Assembly: GCF_008042045.1 (NCBI RefSeq)
Contig: NZ_RDBP01000053.1
Location: forward strand, 1 to 64,000
Source of the DNA: Streptomyces sp. T39
Lineage (GTDB): Bacteria; Actinomycetota; Actinomycetes; Streptomycetales; Streptomycetaceae
Reading direction: 5' to 3'
Length of the DNA: 64,000 nt
The first letter of the stretch is position 1. Every line of letters starts with the position of its first letter. This document shows positions 1,263-64,000 of this stretch, in pieces. Position numbers and translations under genes: made by a program. The notes beneath the pieces are model-generated. The model had not been told where the DNA came from and made no database searches. It was given only the letters and a program-made list of their open reading frames with translations.

Positions 1263-1364
1263 ATGCGCGGAACTCTCATGTCCACCCAGGAAGGAAACGC
1301 CCCCCATCTCGAGGACATGACACTTCGTGCACACGCTGAACCTGGGAATCCTGGCGCATGTTGA
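1263..1364 (+). CDS. Putative 33-codon leader peptide overlapping the ribosomal protection gene
   Basis: A good ribosome-binding site (GGAGG, 1251-1255) sits 7 nt before ATG 1263. The frame runs 33 codons to TGA 1362-1364, ending 38 nt inside the next gene (GTG 1327) in a different frame. Its translation would deliver ribosomes over the downstream start. tet(M)-type genes are known to be controlled through short leader ORFs, so an attenuation or coupling role is plausible here. The peptide (MRGTLMSTQEGNAPHLEDMT and onward) has no family I know. The real ORF could equally be fortuitous. Confidence 0.45.
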   Translation: MRGTLMSTQEGNAPHLEDMTLRAHAEPGNPGAC

Positions 1365-43773: not shown

Positions 43774-43917
43774 GTGAAGTTACGAGAAGCGATCGAGCGC
43801 GTGCGGATACCGGCGTCCATGCCCGGGTGTCCCGTCTCGGAGGGCATCGTTAGGCAGCACACGGGAGTCGCCCTGGGCGGCGCGGCCGGGTGTGTGAGGG
43901 TGGGAGGAAACCGGTGA
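43774..43917 (+). CDS. 47-aa microprotein with a TTA codon, coupled to the DUF5131 gene
   Basis: GTG 43774 follows GGAGGTTCGACAG. The third codon is TTA (43780-43782), very rare in this genome type and read by the bldA tRNA. The product (MKLREAIERVRIPASMPGCP and onward) holds two cysteines and ends VGGNR. Its stop overlaps the start of the DUF5131 gene (GTGA at 43914). The ribosome-binding site for that gene lies inside this ORF, so translation of the microprotein should gate the downstream gene. No family is recognised. Confidence 0.55.
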   Translation: MKLREAIERVRIPASMPGCPVSEGIVRQHTGVALGGAAGCVRVGGNR

Positions 43918-44660
43918 GCGACCGCAGCGCGATCGAGTGGACCGAGGCGACCTGGAACCCGACGACCGGCTGCGACCGTGTCTCCTCGGGGTGCGACAAC
44001 TGCTACGCCCTGACCCTGGCGAAACGGTTGAAGGCCATGGGGGCGGCGAAGTACCAGAACGACGGCGATCCGCGTACGTCAGGGCCAGGGTTCGATGTCA
44101 CCCTGCACCCCGACGCGCTGGACGTGCCGTACGGGTGGAGGAGCCCGCGGACGGTGTTCGTGAACTCGATGTCTGACCTGTTCCACGCCCGGGTGCCGCT
44201 CGACTTCGTCCGCCAGGTCTTCCAGGTCATGGCCGACACTCCGCAGCACACCTACCAGGTCCTCACCAAGCGGGCCCGGCGGCTTCGGCAGGTCGCCCCG
44301 AAGCTGGACTGGCCGGAGAACCTCTGGATGGGTGTCTCGGTGGAGACGGAGAAGGAACTCGTCCGCGTCGACGACCTGCGCGAGGTCCCCGCCGCCGTGC
44401 GGTTCTTGTCCTGTGAACCGCTGCTGGGCCCGCTGCCCGGACTGAACCTGGACGACATCCACTGGGTCATCGCCGGCGGCGAGTCCGGACCTGGGCATCG
44501 GCCACTCGATCCCAGCTGGGTCACCCAGATCCGTGACACCTGCCAGGGCGCTGGCGTGGCGTTCTTCTTCAAGCAATGGGGCGGCCGCACCCCGAAGGCC
44601 GGCGGCCGGCTCCTCGAGGGGCAGACGTGGGATCAGATGCCGCTGTCGGTCGCGGTCTGA
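43914..44660 (+). CDS. Gp37/Gp68 (DUF5131) three-Cys protein, partner of TcmP
   Basis: The 248-aa product opens IEWTEATWNPTTGCDRVSSG with cysteines at 20, 27 and 30 (GC-x6-C-x2-CYA). This three-Cys motif resembles radical-SAM cluster sites without being one. Conserved later segments are VFVNSMSDLFHARVPLDFV, YQVLTKRARRL, LWMGVSVET, FLSCEPLLGP and IAGGESGPGHRPL. The family is named from phage proteins and is regularly found beside tcmP genes, as here (convergent, next gene). Its biochemical activity is not established. Confidence 0.85.
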   Translation: MSDRSAIEWTEATWNPTTGCDRVSSGCDNCYALTLAKRLKAMGAAKYQNDGDPRTSGPGFDVTLHPDALDVPYGWRSPRTVFVNSMSDLFHARVPLDFVRQVFQVMADTPQHTYQVLTKRARRLRQVAPKLDWPENLWMGVSVETEKELVRVDDLREVPAAVRFLSCEPLLGPLPGLNLDDIHWVIAGGESGPGHRPLDPSWVTQIRDTCQGAGVAFFFKQWGGRTPKAGGRLLEGQTWDQMPLSVAV

Positions 44661-44672
44661 CGTGAGCAGGTG

Positions 44673-44723
44673 GTGTGGCCTGGCCCGGCTGAGGCCCGGC
44701 CACGAGGTCAGGCCGCCACACCT
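44673..44723. terminator. Possible shared terminator between DUF5131 and tcmP
   Basis: GGTGTGGC-CTG (44673 onward) can pair with CAGGCCGCCACACC (ending 44723) around a C-rich centre, with a 3-nt bulge. It lies between the convergent stops and overlaps the last codons of tcmP. Confidence 0.4.
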
Positions 44724-45889
44724 CCGGGGTAGACGATGATGTCCCGGACCTTCTTCACGCCGACCCCGTCACTGGGCGTCCGTCCCTGCTCGTGCAGAAG
44801 CCGCACGGCCTGGCGCACCACGGGCTCGGTGATCTGGCCGTAGAAGGAGCCGAAGATTTCCAGCGGGTAGTCGACAAGCTTGACCTTCTGCCGGGTTCGG
44901 GACAGCAGCTTCGCCAGGTTCTCTGCGATCTCCGGCACCGCTTGGCGCTCGACCTCCTTCGGGTCCGGACGTGCCATGGAGACCATGGAGAACAGGGCAC
45001 CGTCGTCCTCGCGCTCCTCCAGCGTCGCCCACCAGGTCGCCCGTGCTCGGGCCACGGTGTCGCCGAACACCCACAGGCCGTACGGGCTCCGGGTGGCGAA
45101 CACCAGCCGGTAGACGGCCCTCTTGCGTGGCGAGTGCGAGACCGGCACCGACTGCACCAGCATCCCGGTGCGTTGCGCGAGCCGGCGGGCGTACTCTTCC
45201 GCGACGGCCTCGATCGCGTCCTCGGCCGCGCCTTCCTTCTCGCGCGAGGCCACCGCGTCGGCGAAGTAGTCCCGCCACCATGTTCCGCCGCACACGTCGT
45301 CGAACCGCTGCAGCGACTTCTCGTTCCCGTGCGGGGAGCGGACGTGCCCGCCCAGGCGCCACACGGCCATCATGCTGAAGTTCATCAGGAGCTCGGTCGC
45401 CGGCCGCTTCTGCGGGCGCTTGCAGGCGAGGACGTCGACCAGGCGGTCTTGGGGCAAGACGAGCCCGCACGGATCCAGGAAGAGGAACAGCGGCTCCCGA
45501 ATCGCGCGCTCGACGACCTGGTCCAGGACGCCGTTGACCTCACCGTGGTGGGCGTGCGCTCTCACACCGTGGGCGCGGTACTGCTGGACGACGTCGTGCA
45601 GCCGGTCGAATGACTTCTGCTGGGGTTCGGAGAAGAAGCACTCCAGCGTCAGCCCCGGCTTGCCCCGCAGGTACAAGGCGACCCTCATCGCGATCTCGCC
45701 CGAGGCCGGATCTCCGTTCTCATACCTGCCTTCGCCGGCGTACCCGTCGAGGTAGACCACGCGCTTGTCGTGGGACTGCGTGCCGGTCATCCCGCCGAAC
45801 TGCGGCAGGTACCGCTTGAGGAGGTCGTGCTTGAACACGCTGGGCAGCGCCTTGTCCGCCCAGTAGCCCCCGCCTGTACCTGACGACAT
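44708..45889 (-). CDS. tcmP: Three-Cys-motif partner protein TcmP
   Basis: The 393-aa product carries the TcmP signature near the start: FKHDLLKRYLPQFGGMTG (about 19-36), then VVYLDGYAGEGRYENGDP (about 48-65), CFFSEPQQKSFDRL and LFLFLDPCGL (near 130). TcmP proteins occur with DUF5131 proteins and have no proven function. The DGYAG segment recalls nucleotide- or SAM-binding loops. ATG 45889 follows GGGGGTAGAG. It is divergent from an HTH gene and convergent with its DUF5131 partner. Confidence 0.85.
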   Translation of the reverse strand: MSSGTGGGYWADKALPSVFKHDLLKRYLPQFGGMTGTQSHDKRVVYLDGYAGEGRYENGDPASGEIAMRVALYLRGKPGLTLECFFSEPQQKSFDRLHDVVQQYRAHGVRAHAHHGEVNGVLDQVVERAIREPLFLFLDPCGLVLPQDRLVDVLACKRPQKRPATELLMNFSMMAVWRLGGHVRSPHGNEKSLQRFDDVCGGTWWRDYFADAVASREKEGAAEDAIEAVAEEYARRLAQRTGMLVQSVPVSHSPRKRAVYRLVFATRSPYGLWVFGDTVARARATWWATLEEREDDGALFSMVSMARPDPKEVERQAVPEIAENLAKLLSRTRQKVKLVDYPLEIFGSFYGQITEPVVRQAVRLLHEQGRTPSDGVGVKKVRDIIVYPGGVAA

Positions 45890-48271: not shown

Positions 48272-49057
48272 GTGTCCGTACGCCTCCACCGTCTCCGTCT
48301 GCCTGTTCACGCACTCACCGCCGTCCTGCTCTCCGCCTCCCTCGCCGCCTGCGGCAGCGCGGCCGAGGACAAGACGGCCGACGCGAAGCCGAGTACGACG
48401 GCCGGCTCCACGTCCGAGGGCGCGTCGTCGGGGACGGCTACGCCGTCCGCGACCCCTCCACCGGCGGCGCCCGGCGGCAACGCGGCCGGCGGAGGGATGC
48501 CGCTGGCCGAGGCGATCGGAAAGCTCCCCGCCGCCGCCGAGGTCCGGGACGGCTACAAGCGCACCAGCTTCAAGCACTGGATCGACGAGGACGACGACAG
48601 CTGCGACACCCGCGAGGAGGTCCTCCTCGCCGAGGCCCTCGAGCCCCCTCAGCAGGGCGCGGGCTGCAAGATCACCGGCGGCTCCTGGATCTCCTTCTAC
48701 GACGAGGTCGCGGTCACCGAGGCCGGGAAACTCGACATCGACCACATGGTCCCGCTTGCCGAGGCCTGGGACTCCGGAGCGGCGGCCTGGACCGCCGAAC
48801 GCCGTCAACGGTACGCCAACGACCTCGGCTTCGACCGGGCGCTGGTCGCTGTCACAGCGAAGACGAACCGGTCCAAGGGCGACAAGAACCCGGCCCAGTG
48901 GATGCCGCCGGCCGCCTCCGCGAAGTGCGCCTACATTGCGGATTGGGTCGCGGTGAAGCTCCGCTGGGGGCTCGCCGCCGACACCGAGGAGACCGCCGCA
49001 CTCACCCGCTACGCAACCGATTGCACCACCACCATCTCGTACGAACCCGCCCCCTGA
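48272..49057 (+). CDS. HNH (DUF1524-like) endonuclease lipoprotein
   Basis: The 261-aa product has a lipobox LAAC near residue 27, a Ser/Thr/Pro/Gly-rich linker (about 30-75) and a nuclease domain. It includes REEVLLAEALEPPQQGAGCK, then LDIDHMVPLAEAWDSGA (the HNH-type DH motif) and NRSKGDKNPAQWMPP. This is the DUF1524/HNH type of secreted or surface nucleases. GTG 48272 follows GGGGGATCC. A possible -10 (TATGAT, 48233-48238) lies upstream. Role: extracellular DNA degradation or competition, inferred. Confidence 0.82.
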   Translation: MSVRLHRLRLPVHALTAVLLSASLAACGSAAEDKTADAKPSTTAGSTSEGASSGTATPSATPPPAAPGGNAAGGGMPLAEAIGKLPAAAEVRDGYKRTSFKHWIDEDDDSCDTREEVLLAEALEPPQQGAGCKITGGSWISFYDEVAVTEAGKLDIDHMVPLAEAWDSGAAAWTAERRQRYANDLGFDRALVAVTAKTNRSKGDKNPAQWMPPAASAKCAYIADWVAVKLRWGLAADTEETAALTRYATDCTTTISYEPAP

Positions 49058-50998: not shown

Positions 50999-53674
50999 TC
51001 ACGGCGAAGTACGCAGGGCGTCGTGGCGGGCGGTGACCAGCCCTCGCCATCGCCGCCGTGTGTGCTGTGCTCCGTCGATCCAGTGGGTCGGTGAGGCTTC
51101 CTCGAGCGGCAGGCTCGCCCTGAAGGCGGCGATGTCGCCGTAGTAGGCGAAGTCGCCACCGCGGGTGTTCTCGCGCAGCCGGGCGATCGTCGCGGACGCC
51201 TGGTCCTGCTCGTCGCGGACGGCGTGGTGGAAGGTGAGAGCGAGGTCCAGGGCGAGCTCGGTATACGTGACGCCCGCTGTCTGGATCTCGGCGCGCAGCA
51301 CCTGGGCGCGGTCTTCGATGTCGGCGTCGGTGCGGCCGGCGTCGCGGGCAAGCGCCGCGATATGGGTGATCAGGGTGGTGGCGCGCATATCCACGCCAGC
51401 CAGCAGCTGCTCGGCGAGGGCGAGCTCACTGTCGGCGGCGGCCGGGTCACAGAAGGCGAGGGCGAAGGCGCGGTGAGCCTGGCTGTTGCCGCGCTCACCT
51501 GTGATGCCGTGGTGTTCGGCCTCGTCGCGTGCGGCGGCGTACGCGAGGGCGGCGCGGTCCATGTCGCCGTGGGGCCACCAGATGTCGCCTTGGACGCGGT
51601 GGTGGCGGCCTTCCCAGCCCAGGGTGTGGGCGGTGGCGAGGGCGGTGGGGAAGTCGCCGGCCATGCGGGCGAGATGGGCGAGTCCGCGGCGGGCGGCGGG
51701 GGCGAGGCGGCCCTGGCCGTCGGCGACGGTCTGCATGCCGGCGCGGGAGGCCGGGCTGTTGCCGAGGTCGCGGTGGGCCTTGGCCCGGTAGTACAGGGCC
51801 ATGTGCTGGAGGTCGTCGGGGAGCAGATGGCTGCCGATGACCGCGGTGAGGCGGGCGACGGTGTACGAGCGGTGCTGGTGCTGGCGGCGGGCGAGTGCGC
51901 TGAGGAGTTCGACCAGGGCGTCGGCGGCCGTGTCCAGTCCTGTGCTGTCTGTGTCGGGTGGGGCGAGGGGTTCCCACACCGAGTCGCTGACGTACGCCCA
52001 GGCGGCGTCGGCGAGCCAGCCCAGGTCGAGACGAAAGTCGCGGGCCAGAGTCAGGCCCTGGCGCAGGCAGCCGACCAGGAGCATCCGGTTCCGGCCGGTG
52101 CGCGCGCTGAACTGCTCGCCGAGGGCGGCGAGCGCACGCTGGGCGGCCTGCTCCCAGTTGCGTGTCGACCAGGGGTCGTCGGCCTGGTCGTCGGCGCCGC
52201 GGACGGTGGAGCGGATCAGCCCGTGCAGGTGGTACGGCCACAGGCCGAAGACGTTCTCGCGGACGAAGGGCCGTTCGATCAGCCGCAGGGCCGGCGCTTC
52301 GTGGCGAAGGCCGGCGGCCGCGGTGGCCAGGTGCAGGTCGAAGGCGTCCAGCAGGGCCACGGATCGCAGGACGTGCCGCTCGTCGGGGGTGAGGTCGGAC
52401 AGGGTGCGGGCGATCAGCGCCGGGAAGTCGTGGTCGAAGTCGTCCGGCTGCGGGGTGCGGCCGGCGCGGCGGATCTCCAGGAACCGCATCACCGACAGGT
52501 CCAGGTAGAGGGGCAGGCCGTGGGAGCGGCCGGTGATGACCTGGCGGATGTCTGCGCTGATGAGCGGCTCGCCGTCACGGGTGAGGCGGCGGGCGAGGTG
52601 GTCGTCGCAGTCCTCGGGGGAGAAGTCGCCGACGAGGACCTGCCGTCCGTGGCCGTGCGGCGGCCGGGCGGCGCGGGCGGCCGGGATGGCAGCGGGCAGG
52701 GCCAGGCCCGGCCAGGCGGCGGGGCCGGTGTAGTCGAGCTGCCCTTGGAGAGCGACGTCGGCCCATTGCAGGCGGGAGCGGCCGGTGATGACGAAGAAAC
52801 AGTTCGGCATCAGCCACACCACCCGCTGGATGAGGCGCTCCAGGTCGCGGTGCGTACGGTCGCCGACGTCCTCGAAGGTGTCCAGCAGGATCACCGGCAG
52901 GACGCGCTTGTCCGTCGGCAGCTGGGCGAGCTCCCAGGCCAGCAGGTGCGGGTAGAAGGACAGCGCCTCCAGGTCGCATTCGGCCTCCAGCAGGTCCGCC
53001 AGCCGCGCGCACCCGGCGAGCGCCCGTACGGTCTGGCGCCGCTCCCGCAACGCCCCCGTGAGGGAGCCGACCACCGCGCCGACTGCCGTGCCGACAGTGC
53101 CGGGCAGAAGGAGCGCCTGGGCGACGTCGGCGAGGGCGGACTGCATCTGCTGGGGCATCGCCTTGCCGAACCGGCCCGCCAGGCCGCCGCGGCGCAGGTA
53201 CTCCTCCAGGCTCTCGCCGGGATGCTGGCTCTCCCAGTAGCGGCGAAGGGCGATGTCGAAGGCGGGCAGCGGGCGGCCCAGCTCGGCGAGCGCGGCCCGG
53301 ATCGTGAGGACGACGTCCTCGAAGGACGTGCCGGCCGAGCGCGCGAGATCGATGCGTACGGGCAGGATCCGCTCCCCTGCCCAGGTGGGCTCACCCCACT
53401 GGGCGGGCCGCTGGTCGGCCCCGGCGAGCGCGGCCTCCAACTTGCGGGACAAGGTCGTCTTGCCGATCCCGCCGACCCCGTGGAACACCATCACGTTGTG
53501 CCGCGGGCGCTCTAGGTCCTCGACATCGAACCCGGCAGCGGTGACCTGCCGCAGATGTTCGGCCAGCGCGGCCGCGACCAGCTCCCACTGAAGCTGCCGG
53601 TTCGTGAACGCCTCCACGGCCGTCAGGCCCCGGTCGTTCGTGCTGAACAGCGCCCGCAGATCCCGACCCGCCAC
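50999..53674 (-). CDS. STAND NTPase (NB-ARC/NACHT-like) with C-terminal TPR-like region
   Basis: The 891-aa product has a leading segment with DRGLTAVEAFTNRQLQWELV (about 15-34), Walker A GVGGIGKTTLSRKL near 66, Walker B LPVILLDTFEDVGD near 260 and sensor NCFFVITGRSRLQWA near 293. Helical domains with TPR-like periodicity run from about 560 to 870. Such ATPases act as ligand-triggered switches, some in antiviral defence. No effector domain is visible, so signal output is unknown. GTG 53674 follows GGTGGAGC. Confidence 0.85.
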   Translation of the reverse strand: MAGRDLRALFSTNDRGLTAVEAFTNRQLQWELVAAALAEHLRQVTAAGFDVEDLERPRHNVMVFHGVGGIGKTTLSRKLEAALAGADQRPAQWGEPTWAGERILPVRIDLARSAGTSFEDVVLTIRAALAELGRPLPAFDIALRRYWESQHPGESLEEYLRRGGLAGRFGKAMPQQMQSALADVAQALLLPGTVGTAVGAVVGSLTGALRERRQTVRALAGCARLADLLEAECDLEALSFYPHLLAWELAQLPTDKRVLPVILLDTFEDVGDRTHRDLERLIQRVVWLMPNCFFVITGRSRLQWADVALQGQLDYTGPAAWPGLALPAAIPAARAARPPHGHGRQVLVGDFSPEDCDDHLARRLTRDGEPLISADIRQVITGRSHGLPLYLDLSVMRFLEIRRAGRTPQPDDFDHDFPALIARTLSDLTPDERHVLRSVALLDAFDLHLATAAAGLRHEAPALRLIERPFVRENVFGLWPYHLHGLIRSTVRGADDQADDPWSTRNWEQAAQRALAALGEQFSARTGRNRMLLVGCLRQGLTLARDFRLDLGWLADAAWAYVSDSVWEPLAPPDTDSTGLDTAADALVELLSALARRQHQHRSYTVARLTAVIGSHLLPDDLQHMALYYRAKAHRDLGNSPASRAGMQTVADGQGRLAPAARRGLAHLARMAGDFPTALATAHTLGWEGRHHRVQGDIWWPHGDMDRAALAYAAARDEAEHHGITGERGNSQAHRAFALAFCDPAAADSELALAEQLLAGVDMRATTLITHIAALARDAGRTDADIEDRAQVLRAEIQTAGVTYTELALDLALTFHHAVRDEQDQASATIARLRENTRGGDFAYYGDIAAFRASLPLEEASPTHWIDGAQHTRRRWRGLVTARHDALRTSP

Positions 53675-53872: not shown

Positions 53873-54148
53873 GTGTCCGACAACCCCAGCCCCGATTTCT
53901 CCGGCCTGGAGGGCGGCGAGGAGCAGGCAGCCGAGGAGGCCATCCAGGAGGTGATCAACTGGTACAACACCCAGCTCCTCGAGGAGCGCCGCTCGCCCGT
54001 GCCGGACGAGGGGCGGGCCGAGGAGCTGAAGGCCGGCAGGGAAGCCGCCCTCGCAGATCGGGCCCAGCTGGCGACGGCGGATCCGGAGGAAGCTGGCCGG
54101 GTCGCCGCCACCTACGCCGCCGGGCTGAAGGAGCTCAAGGAGTCGTAG
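53873..54148 (+). CDS. Small acidic hypothetical protein
   Basis: This 91-aa, Glu/Ala-rich helical protein (SGLEGGEEQAAEEAIQEVIN, then LKAGREAALADRAQLATADP) could be a small antitoxin-like or adaptor protein. GTG 53873 follows AAGGCGG. It is divergent from the STAND gene, and its 3' end overlaps the end of the zeta-like gene by 37 bp in opposite orientation. No family is recognised. Confidence 0.5.
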   Translation: MSDNPSPDFSGLEGGEEQAAEEAIQEVINWYNTQLLEERRSPVPDEGRAEELKAGREAALADRAQLATADPEEAGRVAATYAAGLKELKES

Positions 54149-55947
54149 CCGGCGGACCTGCTCGGTACGGGCAGGGGCCAGAGGCGCGGGTGCGGCCGGC
54201 CGAGGCGAGCCGGCTGCACCCGCGCGGGCATCAGCGGCCGGGCGAGCGCGGCGATCTCGTCCAGCTCCTGGCGGTGGCGGGGGAGCGCCCGGCGCAGGCC
54301 CTGATGGAGGCGGAGGAAGGCCTCGGCCTCCTGATCGGTGTAGGGGCGGAGTCGCTCTGCGGCCAGAGCCCACGAAGCCCGCCCGGCGCCGGAGCCGTTC
54401 TCGTGGCGCAGCAGGGCTTGGCCGTCCCGGCGGATCACCGTGATGGCCGTGATCTGCGGGTGCTGCTCGGCGACGGCGACGACATCGGCGAGCGCACGGA
54501 AGCAGGTGTCGTGTCCGGAGCGGCTGGTGAACCGGCCGGTGCCGCCGCGTTGCAGGGCACGGGCGTAGCGCAGCGCGGTGGAGAGCCGGCTGTCGGCCTC
54601 CCTCACGGCCAGGACGACGAGTTCGACCGGGTAGCCGGTAGTCGCGAAGGGCAGCGCGCTGGCGAGGAACTCCTCCACGCTGCCGGGGGCGGCCTCGATC
54701 AGGACGTCACCGCGCCGCTCGCGGACGTACTGCTCGGCCCAGGCGAACCAGGACCGGTAGTCGGCGCGGATCGCCGCTCCGGCGCTGCGGGGGTCGTCGC
54801 GCAGCAGCTGGAAGTAGTCGGGGTGCTGGGCCTTGAAGTCGTCGCCGACCAGCCGGGTCGTGCCGGGCCGCATCGCGCGGCGGACCATCCGGGTGGCCAG
54901 CAGCTTGCCCGCCCCGGGCTGCCCCATGACGTAGACGGTGCGCGGATCGTCCCGGGTGACGATGCCGTCCAGGTACGACGGGACGATCAGCTCGTCGAAG
55001 ACCCACCGGTGCTCGGTGGTGGAGAGCCGGTGGTAGTCGACGCCCGGCGCGCGCCGTCGGGCCTGGGCGATGCGACGGACCGGCTCGGCGAGCGCTGCGG
55101 CCCGCCGCGCGTCCCGTACGACGGCCAGGCGCTCGTCCTCGCCCGGCACATCGCGGTGCACGCGCACCTCGGCACGGGCTATCTCCTGCTGGAACACAGC
55201 CGTCTCCCGGGCCGTCCAGGCGCGCGAGCGGCCTCGGGCGACCGCCTTGTCGGCGGCGGGCCGACGCCGCCACGCGCCGGCGACGAGCTCGTTGTCATAC
55301 AGCACCGTGCCGGAGCGGGTCACCACGGTGATGCGGTCGGCGAGCTGCTCGGCCTCGATGACCGCGAGCGTCGCGAGCATGTTCTTCGCGCAGGAGTCAT
55401 GGTTCGCCCAGGTCACGAACCGTCCACCCGCCCCGCCGGAGGCCTCGGTGAGGAAGCGATCAATGATGCCCAGCTGGCTTAACGCCTCCGGCGTCGCGAG
55501 CGCGACGACCTCGATCCGGTGCCGGGAACGGCGGTACGCCGCCGCCGACGCACGGAAGTCATCGGGGTCGGCGAGGGCGGATTCGACGACCGCGTCCAGG
55601 CCGTGGTCACGGACGTACTCCTCGACGGCTGCCTGCCAGAAGCTGGTGTCCGGCCGGACCTTCGCGCCGGCGGTCCGGACGTCGGCGGCCAGCGCTGCGG
55701 CGTAGTGGCAGTGGGCGGCCTTGTAGAGGTCGCGGCCGATCCGCACGGAGCCACCGCGCCGCCCGAGTGCCGCCTGGACCAAGTCGGCGGCGTTGGTCTT
55801 CCCGGCCCCCGGCTGGCCACCGACGAACACCACGACCGGACGGGCCTGGGGCGCAGCGCTCGCGGCGGCAGTGGGCAGGATCACCCGCCTCAGCACGGCC
55901 CGGCTCTCGCGGTCCGGAAGCACGGCGTAGCCGTCCAGGTCGTCCAC
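54112..55947 (-). CDS. Double zeta-toxin-like kinase protein with a TTA codon
   Basis: The 611-aa product has two tandem zeta-like P-loop kinase domains. Domain 1 (about 35-270) has GGQPGAGKTNAADLVQAALG with an intact Walker A. Domain 2 (about 335-560) has GQPGAGKLLATRMVRRAMRP, with Leu in place of the usual Thr/Ser after GK, but keeps LVGDDFKAQHPDYFQLL, the Asp/Lys/His-Pro motif of zeta toxins. Zeta enzymes phosphorylate UDP-N-acetylglucosamine. Codon 156 is TTA (55480-55482). GTG 55947 follows GGAGG. No epsilon antitoxin is seen. Confidence 0.82.
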   Translation of the reverse strand: MDDLDGYAVLPDRESRAVLRRVILPTAAASAAPQARPVVVFVGGQPGAGKTNAADLVQAALGRRGGSVRIGRDLYKAAHCHYAAALAADVRTAGAKVRPDTSFWQAAVEEYVRDHGLDAVVESALADPDDFRASAAAYRRSRHRIEVVALATPEALSQLGIIDRFLTEASGGAGGRFVTWANHDSCAKNMLATLAVIEAEQLADRITVVTRSGTVLYDNELVAGAWRRRPAADKAVARGRSRAWTARETAVFQQEIARAEVRVHRDVPGEDERLAVVRDARRAAALAEPVRRIAQARRRAPGVDYHRLSTTEHRWVFDELIVPSYLDGIVTRDDPRTVYVMGQPGAGKLLATRMVRRAMRPGTTRLVGDDFKAQHPDYFQLLRDDPRSAGAAIRADYRSWFAWAEQYVRERRGDVLIEAAPGSVEEFLASALPFATTGYPVELVVLAVREADSRLSTALRYARALQRGGTGRFTSRSGHDTCFRALADVVAVAEQHPQITAITVIRRDGQALLRHENGSGAGRASWALAAERLRPYTDQEAEAFLRLHQGLRRALPRHRQELDEIAALARPLMPARVQPARLGRPHPRLWPLPVPSRSAGYDSLSSFSPAA

Positions 55948-56073: not shown

Positions 56074-58281
56074 GTGCCCATTGAGAACGAGCTGTTCAGC
56101 GCCGTCGATGCGCTGCTGGAAGAGGTCGCTCAGGACGATCTCCCGACACCCGAGGAGCGCAAGCGTCTGCGCGAGGCCGCCGGGCTGAGCCAGGAACAGA
56201 TCGCCAAGGCATTGAAGAGCCGGCGGGAGACCATCGGGAACTGGGAGTCTGGCGTCACAGAGCCGCGGCCGCCGAAGCGCGCCGCGTACGCCCGGCTGCT
56301 GGAGGGCCTCGCCGCCCGCTTCCCCGCCCCGGCCGCCGAAGCGCCCGCCGCGCCCCCGGCGCCGGTGATCCCGGAGGCGTTCACCGGCTCCGCCCCCGTT
56401 CCCGCCCCGGCCGCCGAAGCGCGGGTGGCCCCGGCTGCTGCCGTACGCCCGGCGCCCGCCGCGAAGCCCGCCTCGTCGTCCCGGCGCCAGGGCGCGAAGA
56501 AGGCGGCGGCGAAGAAGACCACGGCGTCGGCGGCCGACGTCGACCCGCGCTTCGAGAACGGGCCGCTCGCGGTCGTCGACATTGACGCCGACGGGCAGGT
56601 GTCGGCGTACTGCGTCGGCGGCCTGGTCCTGGACGTGCCCGCCAAGACGATCCCGGCCCTGGTCGACTGGACGCTGGCGGAGGCGAAGCTCGGGCAGGCC
56701 CGGCTGCACCGCAACGGCCGGGACGCCGACCCGATCCTCGTCCTGACCGCGTCCGCGCTGGAGCGCTTCGGTCTGCCCGCCGCCCTGTCGGAGGAGGAGC
56801 GGCACGCGGGTCGTCTTCCGTCCGGCCACAAGGTGATCAAGCAGATCGAACGCGCTGGCCTGCAGATGACCCAGCGGGGCCTTGGCCCGTGGGCCCGGCT
56901 CTACCGCGACCCGGAGGGCTCCCGGCGGCGCTGCGTCCAGCTGTGCATCCTGCCGTGGAACGCGCTGGACACCCGGGAGTGGGGCCGCAAGGACGACCCG
57001 GAGCTGCTGCTGACGATGCACCCGGCCGACCTCGCCCGCTACCTCGGCCTGTACGCGGCCCGCGTGATGACGCCGCGCGGCTCCACCGCGACGACCGGCC
57101 TGGAGCTGATGACCGCGCTGCGCCCGCCGACCCGCTCGGAGAAGGACGAGGCCACCGGCGAGTTCAAGCGGGCGTTCAACGACGACGCCCTCACCCATCT
57201 CTACCCCGTGGTGGAGTGCGAGGTCCCCGACGAGCACCCGATCCTCAAGGACAAGTTCGCCCGCCACCACATGCGCACTCCGGCAGAGATGCTGATGGAG
57301 GAGGCATACGACTGGTGCCGGCCGCTGACCGATGAGGAGTGCGCGAACCCGTACCTGGTCGCCATCGACATCAACATGTCGTACGCCGCGGCCGCGAACG
57401 GGCTCACGATCGGGCTGAACGGGCCGACCCACCTGACCGGCAACCCGACGTTCGACGCGTCGCTGCCCGGCTCCTGGCTGGTCGACCTGTCCCACGTCGA
57501 CCTCTCCCGCGTCCGGGTCAACGGCCGCACCGTCGACGGCGACCGGCTCCCCTCGCCGTTCACGCCGACCGGCGAGCGCCCCACCGGCCCGGCCTGGTAC
57601 TCCACGCCGACCGTCGCCTACGCCGTGGAGCTCGGCTTCGACGTCGCGCCGATCGAGGCGTACGTGCGCACCCAGACCGGCCGCTACCTGGACTCCTGGT
57701 ACAAGCGACTGCGTGATGCGTACGTGGAGACGATGGCCGACATGGGCGTCACCACCGACCTCCAAGGCGAGGAGTTCCTCGAGGCGATGGCGCGGCGCAA
57801 GCAGACCGACCCGACGATGGCGCTACTGGAGACCGCGATCAAGGCCACGGCCAAGGGCGCGATCGGCAAGCTGCGCCAGCGCTCCCGGGGCCAGGTGCCG
57901 TACTACGAGCCCTACCCGGCGCTGGAGCGCGTGAACTGGCGCCCGGACATCCGGGCCGCCGTCCTCGCCAACCAGCGCACCGGCCTGCACCGCAAGCTGA
58001 TGAAGACGGCGGCCGCCGCCGACCTCTACCCGACCTCCATCGGCACCGACGCCATCGTCTACCCCTCGCCCGGCCCGTCCCCGCTGGACCTCCTGCCGAC
58101 CACGCCCGAGGGCAAGCCGGTGCCCGGCGGCTTCCGGCTCGGCGTCTCGCCCGGCATGGTCAAACACCAGGGCACCCAGACCGTCTTGTGGGCGGAGCAG
58201 CAGTTCGAGGAGCGCGGCGGCGTCTTCAACATCTCCAACCTCATCAAGACCGCCGACCCGACCGCCGGAGAAGGGGAGTAA
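56074..58281 (+). CDS. tap: Telomere-associated protein Tap
   Basis: This 735-aa protein, close to the usual length of Streptomyces Tap, has an N-terminal HTH (about 28-65: LREAAGLSQEQIAKALKSRR, ETIGNWESGVTEP). A Pro/Ala-rich linker (about 85-145) and a large C-terminal domain follow, with YLVAIDINMSYAAAANGLTI and YVRTQTGRYLDSWYKRLRDA. Tap binds the 3' overhang of replicated telomeres and recruits Tpg, which primes end patching. Here it is 3 nt upstream of tpg. GTG 56074 follows GGAGG by 8 nt. It is divergent from the zeta-like gene. Confidence 0.92.
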   Translation: MPIENELFSAVDALLEEVAQDDLPTPEERKRLREAAGLSQEQIAKALKSRRETIGNWESGVTEPRPPKRAAYARLLEGLAARFPAPAAEAPAAPPAPVIPEAFTGSAPVPAPAAEARVAPAAAVRPAPAAKPASSSRRQGAKKAAAKKTTASAADVDPRFENGPLAVVDIDADGQVSAYCVGGLVLDVPAKTIPALVDWTLAEAKLGQARLHRNGRDADPILVLTASALERFGLPAALSEEERHAGRLPSGHKVIKQIERAGLQMTQRGLGPWARLYRDPEGSRRRCVQLCILPWNALDTREWGRKDDPELLLTMHPADLARYLGLYAARVMTPRGSTATTGLELMTALRPPTRSEKDEATGEFKRAFNDDALTHLYPVVECEVPDEHPILKDKFARHHMRTPAEMLMEEAYDWCRPLTDEECANPYLVAIDINMSYAAAANGLTIGLNGPTHLTGNPTFDASLPGSWLVDLSHVDLSRVRVNGRTVDGDRLPSPFTPTGERPTGPAWYSTPTVAYAVELGFDVAPIEAYVRTQTGRYLDSWYKRLRDAYVETMADMGVTTDLQGEEFLEAMARRKQTDPTMALLETAIKATAKGAIGKLRQRSRGQVPYYEPYPALERVNWRPDIRAAVLANQRTGLHRKLMKTAAAADLYPTSIGTDAIVYPSPGPSPLDLLPTTPEGKPVPGGFRLGVSPGMVKHQGTQTVLWAEQQFEERGGVFNISNLIKTADPTAGEGE

Positions 58282-58284
58282 CCC

Positions 58285-58842
58285 ATGGTCGACTCGCTCG
58301 GGGACAGCCTGGACCGCGCACTGGAGAAGGCGTTCACCCGCCCCGCTCCCAAGAGCGCCCAGGCCCAGATGAAGTACCTCGTCAAGCAGCTCAAGGGCAC
58401 CAAGGCCGCCGCCCAGGCCCTCGGGGTCTCCCAGCGCACCGTGGAGCGGTACGTGACGGGCAAGCTCAAGCGGCCCCGCCAGGACCTGCGCGCCCGCCTG
58501 GAGAGCGAGGTCAAGAAGAGGTGGCAGCCGCAGGTCCGCGCGAAGGCGAGGCAGAAGGCGGCGACCACGACCGGGCTGGTCGTCTCCACCCGCGCCCGCT
58601 TCGGCTTCGAAGCCGCCGGGGGCACGACCGACGATGCCCGGATCCGGGACATCACCCAGGCCCTGCCGCCCGAGTACGCCGACCAGCTGTTCACCGCCCG
58701 GGAGCAGGGCGTCGGCGAGGCCCAGCTCCGGCAGATCGCCGCCGACGGCCTGGCCCGGATGTACTTCCGCGCCAACAACAGCAGGGCGCACGGCCTGGAC
58801 GTGGAGTTCACCGACGTGGAGCGGCTCGACATCGACCTGTAG
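58285..58842 (+). CDS. tpg: Telomere-terminal protein Tpg
   Basis: The 185-aa protein is the expected length for Streptomyces terminal proteins. It opens MVDSLGDSLDRALEKAFTRP and has an HTH (about 42-62: GTKAAAQALGVSQRTVERYV). It continues VVSTRARFGFEAAGG and ends IAADGLARMYFRANNSRAHG, then the acidic tail DVERLDIDL. Tpg is covalently bound to the DNA 5' ends and primes completion of telomeres. It follows tap immediately, and a strong hairpin ends the operon. Confidence 0.93.
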   Translation: MVDSLGDSLDRALEKAFTRPAPKSAQAQMKYLVKQLKGTKAAAQALGVSQRTVERYVTGKLKRPRQDLRARLESEVKKRWQPQVRAKARQKAATTTGLVVSTRARFGFEAAGGTTDDARIRDITQALPPEYADQLFTAREQGVGEAQLRQIAADGLARMYFRANNSRAHGLDVEFTDVERLDIDL

Positions 58843-58902: not shown

Positions 58903-59473
58903 TCGCATCCTACGGAAGGCCCGTCACGGTCAGGCCGTACGCGCGGCACGGCACCGTGCCCACCAGGACAGCACGGCGCGGTGGCGGCGTTGATGGCCGG
59001 TCGGAAAAGCGCAGAGCGGGGCGACGGCGGTGACGGCCCGGGTAAGGAGCTCGCGCAAGGCGGCCGTCCTATCCAGGTCGGGCTGCTACTGCCCACCGCG
59101 GGAACCGAGCAAGACCGAAAAGGCGGAGACGAAGGGCTGATGGTGCGTTAATCTGGTGGGCGCCGACGCTCGCGCGTCGGCCGCGTACCGCTCCGGTTAT
59201 GCAGAACCGCACGCCACAGGGTTGGACCTGCGGCGTGAAGAGTGGCTGGCGCCCGTCCACGACGGGAGTCCGGGTCCAGATGGCCTGGCCGACCAGCAGC
59301 TCGCCTGGCTCTGCGGAACGCCGGTCGGCACGAGAGGTCCCGGACACGAGCCGAGGACTGACCGTGACGACGCTCGCCGCCCTGTGACGGCGCGCAGTGG
59401 AGTCCCAGGCACGGTGCCGGGACGGCAGGCCCGGCCTGCAGCGCGCTGATCCCCCAGAAGGGCGAGATCGATC
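58903..59473. other. Intergenic stretch without supported gene
   Basis: 571 bp between the tap-tpg operon and the next operon. Plus-strand frames are short or low-complexity. No promoter of clear quality was found, and it contains no obvious telomere-type palindromes. Confidence 0.4.
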
Positions 59474-61585
59474 GTGAACACTTTCGGTGACGAGAGCAAC
59501 AACCTGCCCCCTCTGCTGCGTAAGCCCGACCCGGTGTCCGACCCGGTGCCTGTGGCTCAGCTGCGGGGCGCCCGCAAGGCCCTGACCGAGAACCCCGCCA
59601 GTCCCCTGGACGACGGCGCGGCCAGCATCGTCACGGCGGGCGCGGTGGAACCGATGCTGCTGCGCAAGATGATCGAGGCGCAGGGAGAAACCGCGGAAGC
59701 CGGGCTGTTGATGGCCAAGCCCGTGGCCGGCGGCACGCTCTACGCCATCCCACCGCACCGGCGCTTCCTCGACCTGGACGTGCTGCCGGACTTCGTCAAC
59801 CAGCGGTGGGCCCACAAGGTGTGGACCGCTATGGACGTGGAGACCTCGACCGCGGCGCCGATCACCTACGAGACCTTGATCGACGAGGAGAGCGGCGAGC
59901 CGCAGGCGGTCTTCGTGGTCCGGATGCCGAACCGCAAGGCGCTGGCAGACGCGGTGACCAAGAGCATGCGTCGGACGTTCTACGCGCAGAACGGGAAGAA
60001 CGTCTACACCGAGAGCGTGCTCCAGCAGGGCGTCAAGGAGCCGATGACGCTCTTCCTGGTCCGCGTGGTGTACGACGACGGCACCCAGGAGACCTTCACC
60101 GTCGCCGGAGACGGCAACAGCCGGCTCGTGAGCATGTGGCTGGCCCGCACCGGCGGTGACATCGACGAGGCTGCCGCCGCGTGCGTGGCCGCTGTCATCG
60201 GCTCGGTGGACCGCTCCGGGCCCCGCCGCCCGGCCGACCAGCGTGCCGCCCGCACGAAGGTGGCGGAGATGGCCGCCCGCGTCCGCCGCGGCCTGGCCGA
60301 ACCCACGCTCACCGAGGCGACCCGCCGCGAGGGCCACACCATCACCTTCCCCGCCATGGTGATCGTCGGCGCGGTCACGGAGGACGGCTCTCCCATGCCC
60401 GACCTCGTGGCCGCGCGGGACGACCTCGTCGCCAACCTGCACGTGAACGTCACCGCGTGGACCGAGGGCGCACAGAACACCCAGGGCATGCAGCGCGTCT
60501 ACCGCCACGCCCTGCACAACGGCCTGATCGACAAGGACACCTATCGAATCCTGCTCGGCGAGGTCGCCGCCGAGCAGATGCACCAGCTCCTCGGGCTGCC
60601 GCCGCACCGGCTGTGGTCCTCCGCGCTCCACCAGCAGACCGTGCTGGCCGGCTACCGCGCCGAACAGATGAACCTGCTCATCAAGCAGGAGTTCGGCATG
60701 GGCAAGGCCGACCGGCAGCGTGTCAGCGACCACCTGGCGCCCATGGCGCTGTCCGCGTACCGCAGCTCCGAGCGGATCGAGCCCGCCATCCGCGCCTTCG
60801 GTAACGGCGGCACGATCACCGACGCGGTATGGAAGCAGCCCTGGGAGCTGAGCACCGGCGACGACGCCTTCAAGGTGCTCGACGACATCTTCTCCAAGGC
60901 GGTCAACGGCGACACCGCCGCCGTGGCCGAACTGACGGTGCTGGGCGGGACGGCGGCGATCCTCGACGGGTACATCACCCGCGACCGTGGCTCCAAGGTG
61001 GGCGTCACCCGTGAGGGCGGCAAGGCGCCGTTCCGGGCCAGCCCGAACAAGCTGCTGGCCATTCTGGCCTCCACCCACGGCGGCCTGAGCATGCTCCACT
61101 CCATCGCGCGCGCACACATCGCGGCCGACCCGGGCATCCTGCCCAAGCGCTACCACACCTACGACCACGAGGTCGACGGCGTGATCGTGCGCGACGGCGA
61201 CCCGGTCCGCGACAAGGTGGGCGCGCTGGTCACCATCGACTACGAGTGGGACCTGGTCTACGCGGCCGACCCCATCGGTGCCGAGGCCGCTATCGCCGAG
61301 AACCGGGCGGCGCTCGGCAACAACCACACCAAGGACGACGACCGGATGGCCGAGGACACGCGCCAGCGGCGAATCCTGGAGCAGGGCATCAAGAACGCCC
61401 GCAAGGCCGTCAACACGTTGGCCAAGATGGTGCCGACCCGGGGCCGCGAGGTCTTCGGCAGCCACGAGGGCGTACAGATGCTGCGCGAGCACCTGCGCAA
61501 GGTCGACGACATCCTTGTCGCCTTCGGCCCCGAGCGGACCGCAGTGCTGGACCTGGACGACGAGGGCGACGGCGACGAGGAGTGA
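59474..61585 (+). CDS. Unrecognised 703-aa protein with ParB/DGQHR-like motif
   Basis: The protein shows GTLYAIPPHRRFLDLDVLPD (about 86-105) and, near 213, GDGNSRLVSMWLA. The latter resembles the D-G-x-x-R motif of ParB-like and DGQHR (DndB-related) domains, which bind or cleave nucleotides or DNA. Helical regions follow (GEVAAEQMHQLLGLPPHRLW, EQMNLLIKQEFGMGKADRQR). The end is acidic. GTG 59474 follows AAGGGCGAG. Its stop overlaps a GIY-YIG-like gene. I know no named family, and the nuclease link is inference. Confidence 0.65.
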   Translation: MNTFGDESNNLPPLLRKPDPVSDPVPVAQLRGARKALTENPASPLDDGAASIVTAGAVEPMLLRKMIEAQGETAEAGLLMAKPVAGGTLYAIPPHRRFLDLDVLPDFVNQRWAHKVWTAMDVETSTAAPITYETLIDEESGEPQAVFVVRMPNRKALADAVTKSMRRTFYAQNGKNVYTESVLQQGVKEPMTLFLVRVVYDDGTQETFTVAGDGNSRLVSMWLARTGGDIDEAAAACVAAVIGSVDRSGPRRPADQRAARTKVAEMAARVRRGLAEPTLTEATRREGHTITFPAMVIVGAVTEDGSPMPDLVAARDDLVANLHVNVTAWTEGAQNTQGMQRVYRHALHNGLIDKDTYRILLGEVAAEQMHQLLGLPPHRLWSSALHQQTVLAGYRAEQMNLLIKQEFGMGKADRQRVSDHLAPMALSAYRSSERIEPAIRAFGNGGTITDAVWKQPWELSTGDDAFKVLDDIFSKAVNGDTAAVAELTVLGGTAAILDGYITRDRGSKVGVTREGGKAPFRASPNKLLAILASTHGGLSMLHSIARAHIAADPGILPKRYHTYDHEVDGVIVRDGDPVRDKVGALVTIDYEWDLVYAADPIGAEAAIAENRAALGNNHTKDDDRMAEDTRQRRILEQGIKNARKAVNTLAKMVPTRGREVFGSHEGVQMLREHLRKVDDILVAFGPERTAVLDLDDEGDGDEE

Positions 61586-62061
61586 GCCCGGCCATACTGA
61601 TCCCCCGGCAGATCACCCGCCAACTTTTCCCTGCGGTCAAGAAGTTGGCTCCACTGCTCAACGCCGCCGCCTTCACCAACGACGGCATCCTGCGGGCCGA
61701 GCTGACCTGCCGTGCCGCCGTTGCGACGGTCCGGCGGGAGATCACAGCGGCCAGCGCGGTGTACGTCACCTGGGACGTGCGCGGCCGCTGCCGCTATGTC
61801 GGCAGCGTTCACCGCGGGGCACCCACGGCAGTGAGTAACCGGCTTGCTGAGCATCACCAGCACCGCACCGAAGGGGGCGTACGACGGGAGGAGTGGGTCC
61901 TGCTGACGGTCCTGCCGATGCGGGTCGACGCCTCACCGCCGGTCGTCCTGGCCGCCGAAGGGTGGGCTGCTCGAATTCTCAGCCCGCTCGATGGTGTCGC
62001 CCATCCCCAGATTGACCTCGTACGACCGCCCGCGGTGATAGCAGCGGCCATGGGCACCTAG
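61582..62061 (+). CDS. GIY-YIG-like nuclease domain protein
   Basis: The 159-aa product has the GIY-YIG layout in its middle. AVYVTWDVRGRCRYVGSVHR (about 59-78) supplies the two short motifs, with VYV standing for GIY and YVG for YIG. SNRLAEHHQHR (about 84-94) gives the conserved Arg and His, and AAEGWAARIL the later Glu. The N-terminal ~55 residues are a helical extension (QLFPAVKKLAPLLNAAAFTN). GTG 61582 overlaps the 703-aa stop by 4 nt, so the two form one unit. A terminator follows. Confidence 0.65.
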   Translation: MSPAILIPRQITRQLFPAVKKLAPLLNAAAFTNDGILRAELTCRAAVATVRREITAASAVYVTWDVRGRCRYVGSVHRGAPTAVSNRLAEHHQHRTEGGVRREEWVLLTVLPMRVDASPPVVLAAEGWAARILSPLDGVAHPQIDLVRPPAVIAAAMGT

Positions 62062-62089
62062 ACGCCTGTAACCCCATTCCGTCACTGAC

Positions 62090-62124
62090 AAGGGCCTGTT
62101 CTCCCAACGGGAGAACAGGCCCTT
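62090..62124 (+). terminator. Terminator of the 703-aa/GIY-YIG operon
   Basis: Near-perfect hairpin AAGGGCCTGTTCTCCC / GGGAGAACAGGCCCTT, 29 nt after the GIY-YIG stop. The stem is long and ends in T-rich sequence. Confidence 0.8.
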
Positions 62125-62394: not shown

Positions 62395-63720
62395 CTACAC
62401 CGGCATCGGGGCGGTGGCCCGGTAGCGCTCGACCAGGCTCTCCATGCCGGTCAGGCCGGCGTCCAGGCCGAGCTGGCGGAGCCAGTCGTCCACCTGCTCC
62501 TGGCGGTCGGTGAAGCTGCGCAGGTCCAGCGCCGGGTTGGCACGGAAGACGCCACCGGCCGATGCCCCGGCCTCCGGGATCTCCTCCAGCCCGTGGGAGG
62601 CCAGGAGTTCCTTGACCTGCCGGTCCGCGACGAGATGGAGCTCGCGCGGCTGCGCCACCAGGGCGGGGTCGATGTCGGCGATGCGGGCGATCTCCGCGAC
62701 GACCTTGGGATCGACGGCGGTCTTCAGCAGCCCGTCGAACAGGACGGCCAGGTCCGGCACCGGGTACCGGTGCGTCCATCCCGCCTTCCCGCGTCCCTCG
62801 GCGTACTGGCAGACCCGGGCGATGACGTCGATGGTGACGCTCGCGACCGCGGACGTCGCAGCGCCGTACGGTTCGGGCAGGTCGACCGACACGATCGCCT
62901 CGACCAGGTGCGTCTTGTCCGCGGGCCAGCCGGCGGCCTGCCACACCAGCCGGGCCTTGCGGGCCCTGTTGTGCCCGAGCCGGCGGAAGCCCGTGTCGTA
63001 GTCGATCGCCCCGTTCCCGAGGTTGCGCAGGGCCGGAGGGAAGGCGGAGTCGTTCAGCGCCTGGGCGAGGGCGTCGACGGTCCTCTCCGACAGCGGGCGC
63101 CAGGCGCCGGCCTGGCCCATCGGGAGGTTGATGCCGGTGCGCAGGATGAAGTCGGCGGTGGCCTTGCCCTCGTTGTCCCTCTCCAGGTTCGGGGACATGA
63201 CGTTCTGCCCCATGGGCAGCACTCTTGCCGACGGCTCCTCCCGGGCGAGCTGGAGGAGCCGGTTACGGTCGGCGGTGGCGTTGCGTCCGCTCAGCCGGAT
63301 CGGCGCTTTCAGTTTCACCAGCACCGGCCGGGGCGCGACGTCGGCGTCCACCCGGATCACCACCACGCTGCGCCCCGACTCGTCGTCGAGGGGCACGTTG
63401 AAGAAGGCCGGCTCCCAGGGCGGATCGAGCATCGTGCTGCACCCGCTGACGATCTGGTCGATCGTCGCCTGGGCGTCGACGCCGACGACCCGCTCGATGC
63501 CCGGCTCCACCCTGTCGTTGATGCCGACCAGGATCATGCCGCCGTAGGTGTTCGCCATCGCCGCGATGGTCTGCACCAGGCTGGAGGAGTACTCGCTCTT
63601 GTACTCCAGCGTCAGGCTCTCCACCTGGTCCAGACGCGCGGCGAGGGCGCGGATGCGCTCGATCGTCAGGTCCGCCGCCGACGCGGCGAACAAAGAGTTA
63701 TTCATCGCCCCATATTCCAT
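62395..63720 (-). CDS. AlbA_2/Schlafen-type ATP-binding protein
   Basis: The 441-aa product has an N-terminal AlbA_2 (Schlafen) domain (about 25-155: LTLEYKSEYSSSLVQTIAAM, then NTYGGMILVGINDRVEPG). Helical regions follow (AGWPADKTHLVEAIVSVDLP, then VFDGLLKTAVDPKVVAEIAR). Proteins of this type bind nucleic acid or ATP and are often found in accessory and defence regions. The start is ATG 63720 or 63705. The first has a better-spaced upstream GGAG. Confidence 0.75.
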   Translation of the reverse strand: MEYGAMNNSLFAASAADLTIERIRALAARLDQVESLTLEYKSEYSSSLVQTIAAMANTYGGMILVGINDRVEPGIERVVGVDAQATIDQIVSGCSTMLDPPWEPAFFNVPLDDESGRSVVVIRVDADVAPRPVLVKLKAPIRLSGRNATADRNRLLQLAREEPSARVLPMGQNVMSPNLERDNEGKATADFILRTGINLPMGQAGAWRPLSERTVDALAQALNDSAFPPALRNLGNGAIDYDTGFRRLGHNRARKARLVWQAAGWPADKTHLVEAIVSVDLPEPYGAATSAVASVTIDVIARVCQYAEGRGKAGWTHRYPVPDLAVLFDGLLKTAVDPKVVAEIARIADIDPALVAQPRELHLVADRQVKELLASHGLEEIPEAGASAGGVFRANPALDLRSFTDRQEQVDDWLRQLGLDAGLTGMESLVERYRATAPMPV

Positions 63721-63831
63721 CAACGGCCCTATCTCCACACCGAATTACCGGGTTCGGCTGAACGCGACAGTCTCGGCCCGAGGTGAACCACCTCACCTGC
63801 AGTCTCCTGCGGCCCCGACCGATCGGTCGCG

Positions 63832-64000
63832 ATGATGCGCAGGATGGCGTTCGTGAGCTGCTACAAGCCGGCGGTCTTCAGCATGGCGCTCAGGGTCTCC
63901 AAGCACACCGAAGATCAGCTCCGGCATATCGCCGCCGAGGGTCTGGCCCGGATGTACGTCCGCGCCAACAGCGCCCTCGCGCACGGCCTGGACGTGGAGT
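63832..64000 (+). pseudogene. Second tpg relic, cut by the window end
   Basis: The frame opens at ATG 63832 or 63835 and runs off the window. DQLRHIAAEGLARMYVRANS, then ALAHGLDVE, matches QLRQIAADGLARMYFRANNS, RAHGLDVE of intact Tpg. Just before, MALRVSKHTE resembles the Tpg HTH segment ALGVSQRTVE, as if an internal deletion joined the HTH to the C-terminus. The N-terminal domain is missing. It may continue as a short truncated protein outside the window. Confidence 0.65.

Follow-up and report, generated by a model that had tools for sequence, protein, structure and literature searches.

A widespread actinomycete gene pair joins a DGxxR-motif protein to a predicted GIY-YIG nuclease and sits preferentially near Streptomyces chromosome ends

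Described systems and the Streptomyces sp. T39 gene pair

GmrSD type IV restriction systems (DUF262 plus DUF1524) combine a DGxxR-motif protein with a nuclease, and the two are sometimes encoded by separate genes (PMC4619093). Here we describe a gene pair that is like them in this respect and would work alike. It lies in the window, as we call the whole 64,000-nucleotide stretch of DNA that was analyzed (bases 1–64000 of a 74-kb contig from the 8.27-Mb genome of Streptomyces sp. T39), and encodes a 703-residue DGxxR-motif protein, a candidate sensor of DNA or of a nucleotide, followed by a 159-residue protein predicted to be a GIY-YIG-type nuclease. Unlike in GmrSD, the nuclease is of the GIY-YIG rather than the HNH type, and neither protein matches DUF262 (PF03235) or DUF1524; PF03235 is present in the genome of the window, on another contig. 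DndB and the DGQHR proteins (PF14072) and SspE share with the large protein the DGxxR motif, upstream QR-type residues and the register of the DGxxR motif in a profile alignment, but the profile match was not significant and the protein, at ∼700 residues, is large. PF14072 itself was not found in the genome of the window.

Two other kinds of system bear comparison. SNIPE (DUF4041 plus GIY-YIG; PMC13190303) also has a GIY-YIG nuclease, which in that system serves antiphage defense, but there DUF4041, the nuclease and a transmembrane anchor are united in a single protein, whereas two proteins are found here. The Tap/Tpg and Tac/Tpc telomere systems of Streptomyces likewise consist of two genes and lie at the ends of linear replicons or close to them, and the pair is physically adjacent to tap and tpg. 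However, it matches neither the Tap nor the Tpg models and is present in a small minority of genomes. No library or paper that we searched names a system with this pair, in agreement with the first-pass annotation of the sequence, which knew of none, and both window proteins lack a match in Pfam, PADLOC, PHROGs and NCBIfam. We also found no publication joining Streptomyces, GIY-YIG and telomere; the libraries and the open-access corpus are incomplete, and an unlisted description is possible.

Conservation and diversity of the pair

When 393 Streptomyces genomes were searched with a profile built on the small protein (A7), 29 (∼7%) proved to encode it. The small gene is immediately preceded by the large one in 26 of the 27 genomes that could be judged, the contig ending at this point in G152 and the stretch being masked in G075; in the remaining judgeable genome, G027, the small gene is present and the large gene was not found upstream. 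Junctions read by script overlap by 4 nt (ATGA or GTGA) or by 1 nt (TGATG), with the exception of G151, where possible starts of the small gene fall at −28 or +5. Close relatives of the large protein (57 to 69% identity) occur in Streptomyces albogriseolus, Streptomyces sp. NRRL S-118, Streptomyces spinoverrucosus, Streptomyces gardneri and genome G396, which belongs to another family of the same order, and in every one of them the small protein follows behind a 4-nt overlap. In Streptomyces sp. NBC_01724, a linear plasmid carries a more distant relative (25%), likewise accompanied by the small protein, and the pair is present outside the order as well, with two strong matches, in G1137 and G1188. 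Chance co-occurrence and a miscalled overlap were rejected, since the pair is kept in dozens of genomes and the overlaps appear in the junctions read by script. The first-pass annotation had proposed a two-gene unit and had named an absence of co-occurrence in other genomes as refuting it; co-occurrence was found, and the locus belongs to an unnamed two-gene module that is widespread in actinomycetes. Decaying copies were also seen, with a frameshift in G225, a truncated large gene in G165 and a small gene lacking a start in G080.

In the window, the two overlapping open reading frames (ORFs) of the first-pass annotation, the longer with its DGNSR motif, were both recovered. The large gene runs from a GTG start at 59474 to a stop at 61585 and the small gene from a GTG start at 61582 to a stop at 62061, both on the + strand, and they meet at the junction GAGTGAGC with an overlap of 4 nt (GTGA). 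The GTG start of the large gene is backed by N-terminal alignment with loci L047 and L043, and a possible ribosome-binding site (agaaggg; 59456–59462, +) stands just before it. The guanine-plus-cytosine fraction by codon position is 0.70/0.45/0.94 in the large gene and 0.74/0.53/0.79 in the small gene, and the ratio of nonsynonymous to synonymous substitution rates relative to the nearest homolog (in G396) is ∼0.45 and ∼0.31, respectively; thus, both genes are coding and constrained. Behind the unit lies the inverted repeat that had earlier been called a terminator, a terminator-like hairpin with perfect 16-bp arms and a 3-nt loop (62090–62124, +). It has no T run and is not among the terminators listed by a consensus scan.

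The two genes have stayed paired even though both proteins have diverged very deeply. The large proteins of at least eight subfamilies are linked, directly or by chain, at E values of ∼1e-3 or better, the best decoy reaching 0.3. Those with the motifs TGANR and KGANR are linked to each other and unlinked to the rest (best E ∼3), and the large protein of G117 has at most a weak link to the rest (best E ∼0.03). Because this sequence link failed, the kinship of the TGANR/KGANR and G117 proteins is judged solely from partner, size, place and motif register. In a tree of the large proteins, which has long branches and is unsure in its details, paired genes stand in all deep branches, with 4 label changes versus 12 when the labels were shuffled. 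The pairing is likely old and was likely lost in a solo clade (motif RDGITR), in which the large gene stands without a nuclease; two of its members, L173 and L174 (in G137 and G009), are chromosome-internal among ordinary-looking genes and have no nuclease beside them. In two close relatives, on the plasmid pNL15-2K-Lin (L001, 4388–4753) and in G307 (L006), the partner has been swapped, with a small predicted membrane protein replacing the nuclease at the same 4-nt overlap. The record NZ_CP130631.1 (L152) is filed as Kutzneria buriramensis and titled Streptomyces sp. NL15-2K plasmid pNL15-2K-Lin, and its organism label looks doubtful. In G035 (L028/L025) and G229 (L029/L023), two ORFs overlapping by 4 nt encode the large protein in two halves, N-terminal and C-terminal, the former with DGISR; these split ORFs mark a natural domain boundary.

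Sequence features of the two proteins

Several lines of evidence strongly suggest that the small protein is a GIY-YIG nuclease, its activity being predicted. Over 19 diverse members, Tyr61, Gly74, Arg87, His91 and Glu126 are invariant. Tyr61 is the Tyr of the GIY motif (VYV here; 61762–61764, +), and ∼10 residues farther on Y72-V73-G74 forms the YIG motif (61795–61803, +), in which position 72 is Tyr or Trp, a spacing expected of the superfamily. Arg87 to His91 span the predicted catalytic helix (61840–61854, +), and Glu126 (61957–61959, +) is the predicted metal ligand. In I-TevI and Eco29kI, Arg and His are likewise four residues apart. Comparison by hhalign with three GIY-YIG domains of the same genome gave a probability of 92% and an E value of 6e-7 with Tyr, Tyr-Gly and Arg in register, the negative control giving 0.05%. 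PF01541 was the only Pfam family matched by several members, weakly and by 5 of the 19 (best E 0.0041), the window protein itself (P0002) having no Pfam match, and UvrC was the only PDB match (E 0.08). Searched across the class, another profile (A9) matched scores of actinomycete genomes weakly, with many E values above 1e-6; the four matches inspected are UvrC/Cho-type GIY-YIG proteins rather than new pairs. The GIY-YIG assignment of the first-pass annotation is therefore upheld by the motif invariance, the profile match and the retrieval of UvrC and Cho. The protein resembles the superfamily (PF01541; UvrC, Cho, I-TevI, Eco29kI) in the motif order Y...(Y/W)xG...R...H...E and in the profile–profile match, but differs from it in being a small, stand-alone, N-terminally extended protein coupled to a large partner, with Pfam matches that are weak or absent.

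The large protein carries its motif at D213-G214-N215-S216-R217 (60110–60124, +), and DGxxR is invariant in alignment A8; other linked subfamilies have DGISR, DGQSR, DGFGR, EGSSR or DCYGR in its place, and the unlinked ones TGANR or KGANR. Upstream, N109-Q110-R111 (59798–59806, +) supplies QR-type residues, R111 being invariant over 12 diverse members. Farther downstream, H323 and W329 bound a region (60440–60460, +) that follows the stretch PAMVIVGA; both residues are invariant in A8, as is N444-G445-G446 (60803–60811, +). The ParB/Srx signature, DGxxR or GxxR after an SIxxxGVxxP stretch, is present as SVLQQGVKEP...DGNSR, with the motif kept or varied across the eight linked subfamilies, and the window sequence SVLQQGVKEP...DGNSRLVSMWLARTGG resembles SIKEVGLLQPVVV...MGERRWRACREAG of ParB. 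DGQHR domains have been described with QR, DGQHR and FxxxN features (PMC4619093), and an LxxxH stretch of the large protein stands where the FxxxN might be. The ParB/DndB-like character that the first-pass annotation had given this protein thus survives in part: the register of the DGxxR motif is right, making a ParB-like protein a lead, but the fold was not established, the profile comparisons being not significant and the AlphaFold model of low confidence. For this reason, membership of the large protein in ParB, DndB or GmrSD_N is not claimed.

Chromosome ends, neighboring genes and possible functions

Linear chromosomes carry the module preferentially near their ends. On near-complete chromosomes, 6 of 10 pairs lie within 25 kb of a contig end (at 0.3, 2.4, 6.7, 7.8, 20.8 and 21.8 kb) and 4 are internal; the 0.3 kb, in G385, reflects a contig that starts inside the large gene rather than a distance measured to the true end, and in G080 and G165 no telomere was recognized at the closest contig end. 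By comparison, none of the 14 counted places of DUF262 (PF03235) genes is within 25 kb of an end (Fisher p = 0.0016), a control drawn from 19 mostly complete genomes that include the ten with pairs, and none of five solo large genes is so placed; counts are small. Both chromosome ends of G068 have identical terminal repeats, each carrying the pair, and both ends of G151 carry it as well, with tpg-tap convergent and 33 nt away. On a replicon of G457, a small-gene remnant lies 4.6 kb from a terminal sequence that we take to be the archetypal telomere.

In the window, as the first-pass annotation had it, the pair stands beside tap and tpg. The tap gene, for the telomere-associated protein, lies upstream (56425–58281, +; NF047542, E 8e-274), its start being a simple gene call in an ORF that reaches further upstream, and tpg, for the terminal protein, is directly upstream of the pair (58285–58842, +; NF047541, E 6e-85). 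The same order, tap-tpg and then the pair, is found in G160 and G017, whose large proteins have no detectable similarity to that of the window, and the pair is also near tpg in G457 and G306. Since tpg, present in 17 of the 19 genomes looked at, is itself often near ends, this adjacency is partly expected; in G068 and G080 tpg was not found, yet the pair is at an end. Beyond the pair, the same contig holds a tpg fragment (63898–64000) and a second, divergent tpg (47%; L045 6738–7274, contig 66737–67276). The systems seen most frequently at the ends of Streptomyces chromosomes, Lamassu and Wadjet, act on plasmids (PMC10482375), so that an end position alone gives no preference for a telomere function. 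The role in terminal DNA processing that had been considered in the first-pass annotation has a lead in the end position and the tap-tpg adjacency.

Other neighbors are of the defense type. A helicase matching PADLOC family PDC-S28 (E 2e-300 and 4e-292) is encoded directly downstream of the pair in three divergent subfamilies, represented by S. albogriseolus L040 (DGNSR), by G068, G385, G020, G195 and G138 (TGANR) and by NBC_01724 (DGQSR); PDC families are candidates by PADLOC's naming. The pair of the window has no such helicase, which we therefore regard as an optional companion. Genes for SLFN_AlbA_2 domain proteins flank the pair of the window (62395–63738, −; PF04326, E 1.8e-13), where the gene serves as context only, and occur near that of G068. 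The restriction-like defense proposed in the first-pass annotation draws a lead from the helicase, the Schlafen/AlbA proteins and other defense-type neighbors. Behind the helicase of L040, a 378-residue protein (11585–12721) matches AbiJ_NTD3 weakly and has a C terminus that resembles a nuclease. A phage gene is an unlikely reading, since no viral relative turned up when IMG/VR was scanned with four queries and there was no match in PHROGs.

We favor, at a probability of roughly 0.55, an unnamed and probably defensive module in which a sensor and a nuclease act against invading DNA. Building on the pairing, the nuclease type and the position described above, we infer the sensing, the complex formation and the target as follows. 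As a ParB/DGQHR-like sensor, the large protein would bind DNA, a nucleotide or the two together and would keep the small protein in an inactive complex. Upon meeting a feature of incoming DNA, whether from a phage or from a conjugative or linear plasmid, it would release the GIY-YIG nuclease to cut. Translational coupling may ensure that no nuclease is made without the large partner. The function would then be akin to two-part modification- or structure-dependent restriction as in GmrSD, with GIY-YIG replacing HNH.

Several observations weigh against this explanation. The PDC-S28 helicase is absent from the window locus, and PADLOC contains no system with this pair. The existence of the solo clade means that the large protein must also act alone or with another partner. 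Profile comparison of the large protein was not significant, with shuffled sequences scoring as well or better in 1 of 100 cases for DndB, 4 of 100 for ParB and 9 of 100 for GmrSD_N, and no relative of it was found in Pfam, PDB or NCBIfam. Its AlphaFold model has a predicted local distance difference test (pLDDT) score of 41, a low confidence, and no usable match; that of the small protein (pLDDT 51, also low) has a strand-strand-helix-strand-helix order that fits GIY-YIG, with Foldseek again finding no match. The models of both proteins came from five sequences and are of low confidence; with their Foldseek searches meaningless as well, they are not used as evidence. Finally, a terminal-DNA role would account at least equally well for the position at ends and next to tap-tpg.

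Two explanations start from that position. The pair may be a dedicated chromosome-end system of linear actinomycete replicons, in which the DGxxR sensor and the GIY-YIG nuclease police or drive end exchange by cutting foreign or module-less telomeric regions; this would explain the very-end position, the adjacency to tap-tpg in unrelated lineages and the presence at tpg-less ends, and we hold it as a tentative and rather doubtful possibility. Alternatively, and doubtful too, the module could serve telomere-linked maintenance or processing, the large protein recognizing terminal palindromes or Tap/Tpg and the nuclease nicking or trimming terminal folds, recombination intermediates or fused ends. 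The excess over DUF262 and solo large genes within 25 kb of ends, the pairs at both ends of G068 and G151, the tap-tpg-pair order shared by the window and G160/G017 despite unlinked large proteins, and the end pairs of G068 and G080 without tpg all speak for such maintenance, as does the fact that for some telomere classes the end-patching system is not known (PMC8743542). Against this stand the four internal pairs, the partly expected adjacency to tpg, and decaying copies, unlike an essential end-patching gene. Moreover, presence throughout a telomere class, as for Tap/Tpg, was not found (∼7% of Streptomyces for the pair versus 17/19 genomes for Tpg, with telomere classes partly typed), making an essential end-patching system unlikely.

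The remaining explanations concern the coupling of the genes or their spread. In a toxin–antitoxin-like arrangement, the large protein would restrain the nuclease and so secure chromosome ends or linear plasmids without any antiphage role; the strict gene overlap, the near-absence of the nuclease without the large protein and a zeta-toxin gene nearby in the window are consistent with it, but one clade has the large gene by itself and two loci have it next to a membrane-protein gene, and a 700-residue antitoxin upstream of its toxin is unusual, so that we consider it unlikely. GIY-YIG is a classical homing-nuclease family, and the module could be selfish, its nuclease cutting ends or tap-tpg loci that lack it and break-induced arm exchange copying it in, as homing endonucleases do with introns. 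Such spread, which appears quite improbable, would suit a patchy module in the most-exchanged part of the chromosome, beside tap-tpg in unrelated lineages and with decaying copies; no intron, intein or defined target interruption was seen, however, a large conserved partner is not required for homing, and internal locations occur. Very improbable is a place for the two enzymes in ordinary DNA or RNA physiology, the GIY-YIG protein acting in repair as UvrC does: UvrC and Cho are its nearest named relatives by profile, but the pair is accessory and patchy, and lies in variable chromosome ends among defense-type neighbors.

Elsewhere in the window, convergent genes encode a three-Cys-motif partner TcmP (TIGR04474) and a Gp37-like partner, PADLOC candidates PDC-M41/M30 (43914–44660, +, and 44708–45838, −). 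A gene at 48497–49057 (+) encodes a GmrSD_C (HNH) domain only (E 1e-12), with no DUF262 partner seen beside it. An 891-residue TPR protein (50999–53674, −) looks like a STAND/NLR-type NTPase and has no PADLOC match, and a 611-residue protein adjoining tap (54112–55947, −) has two stretches matching Zeta toxin (PF06414, E 2.5e-87). Near the start of the window (1327–3333, +) lies a gene for an Otr(A)/Tet-type ribosomal protection protein (NF000120, E 3e-227, below the cutoff).

Should the large protein of the favored sensor-plus-nuclease module prove ParB-like, the pair would extend the GmrSD/SspE kind by a variant with a different nuclease; should the pair act on ends, it would be novel. Such a strictly conserved pair, which none of the searched libraries models, would bring a further nuclease type into DGxxR/ParB-like defense logic. 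Its concentration at chromosome ends makes two questions testable, namely why some defense systems sit at Streptomyces extremities (PMC10482375) and which factors act on telomeres without Tap/Tpg (PMC8743542).

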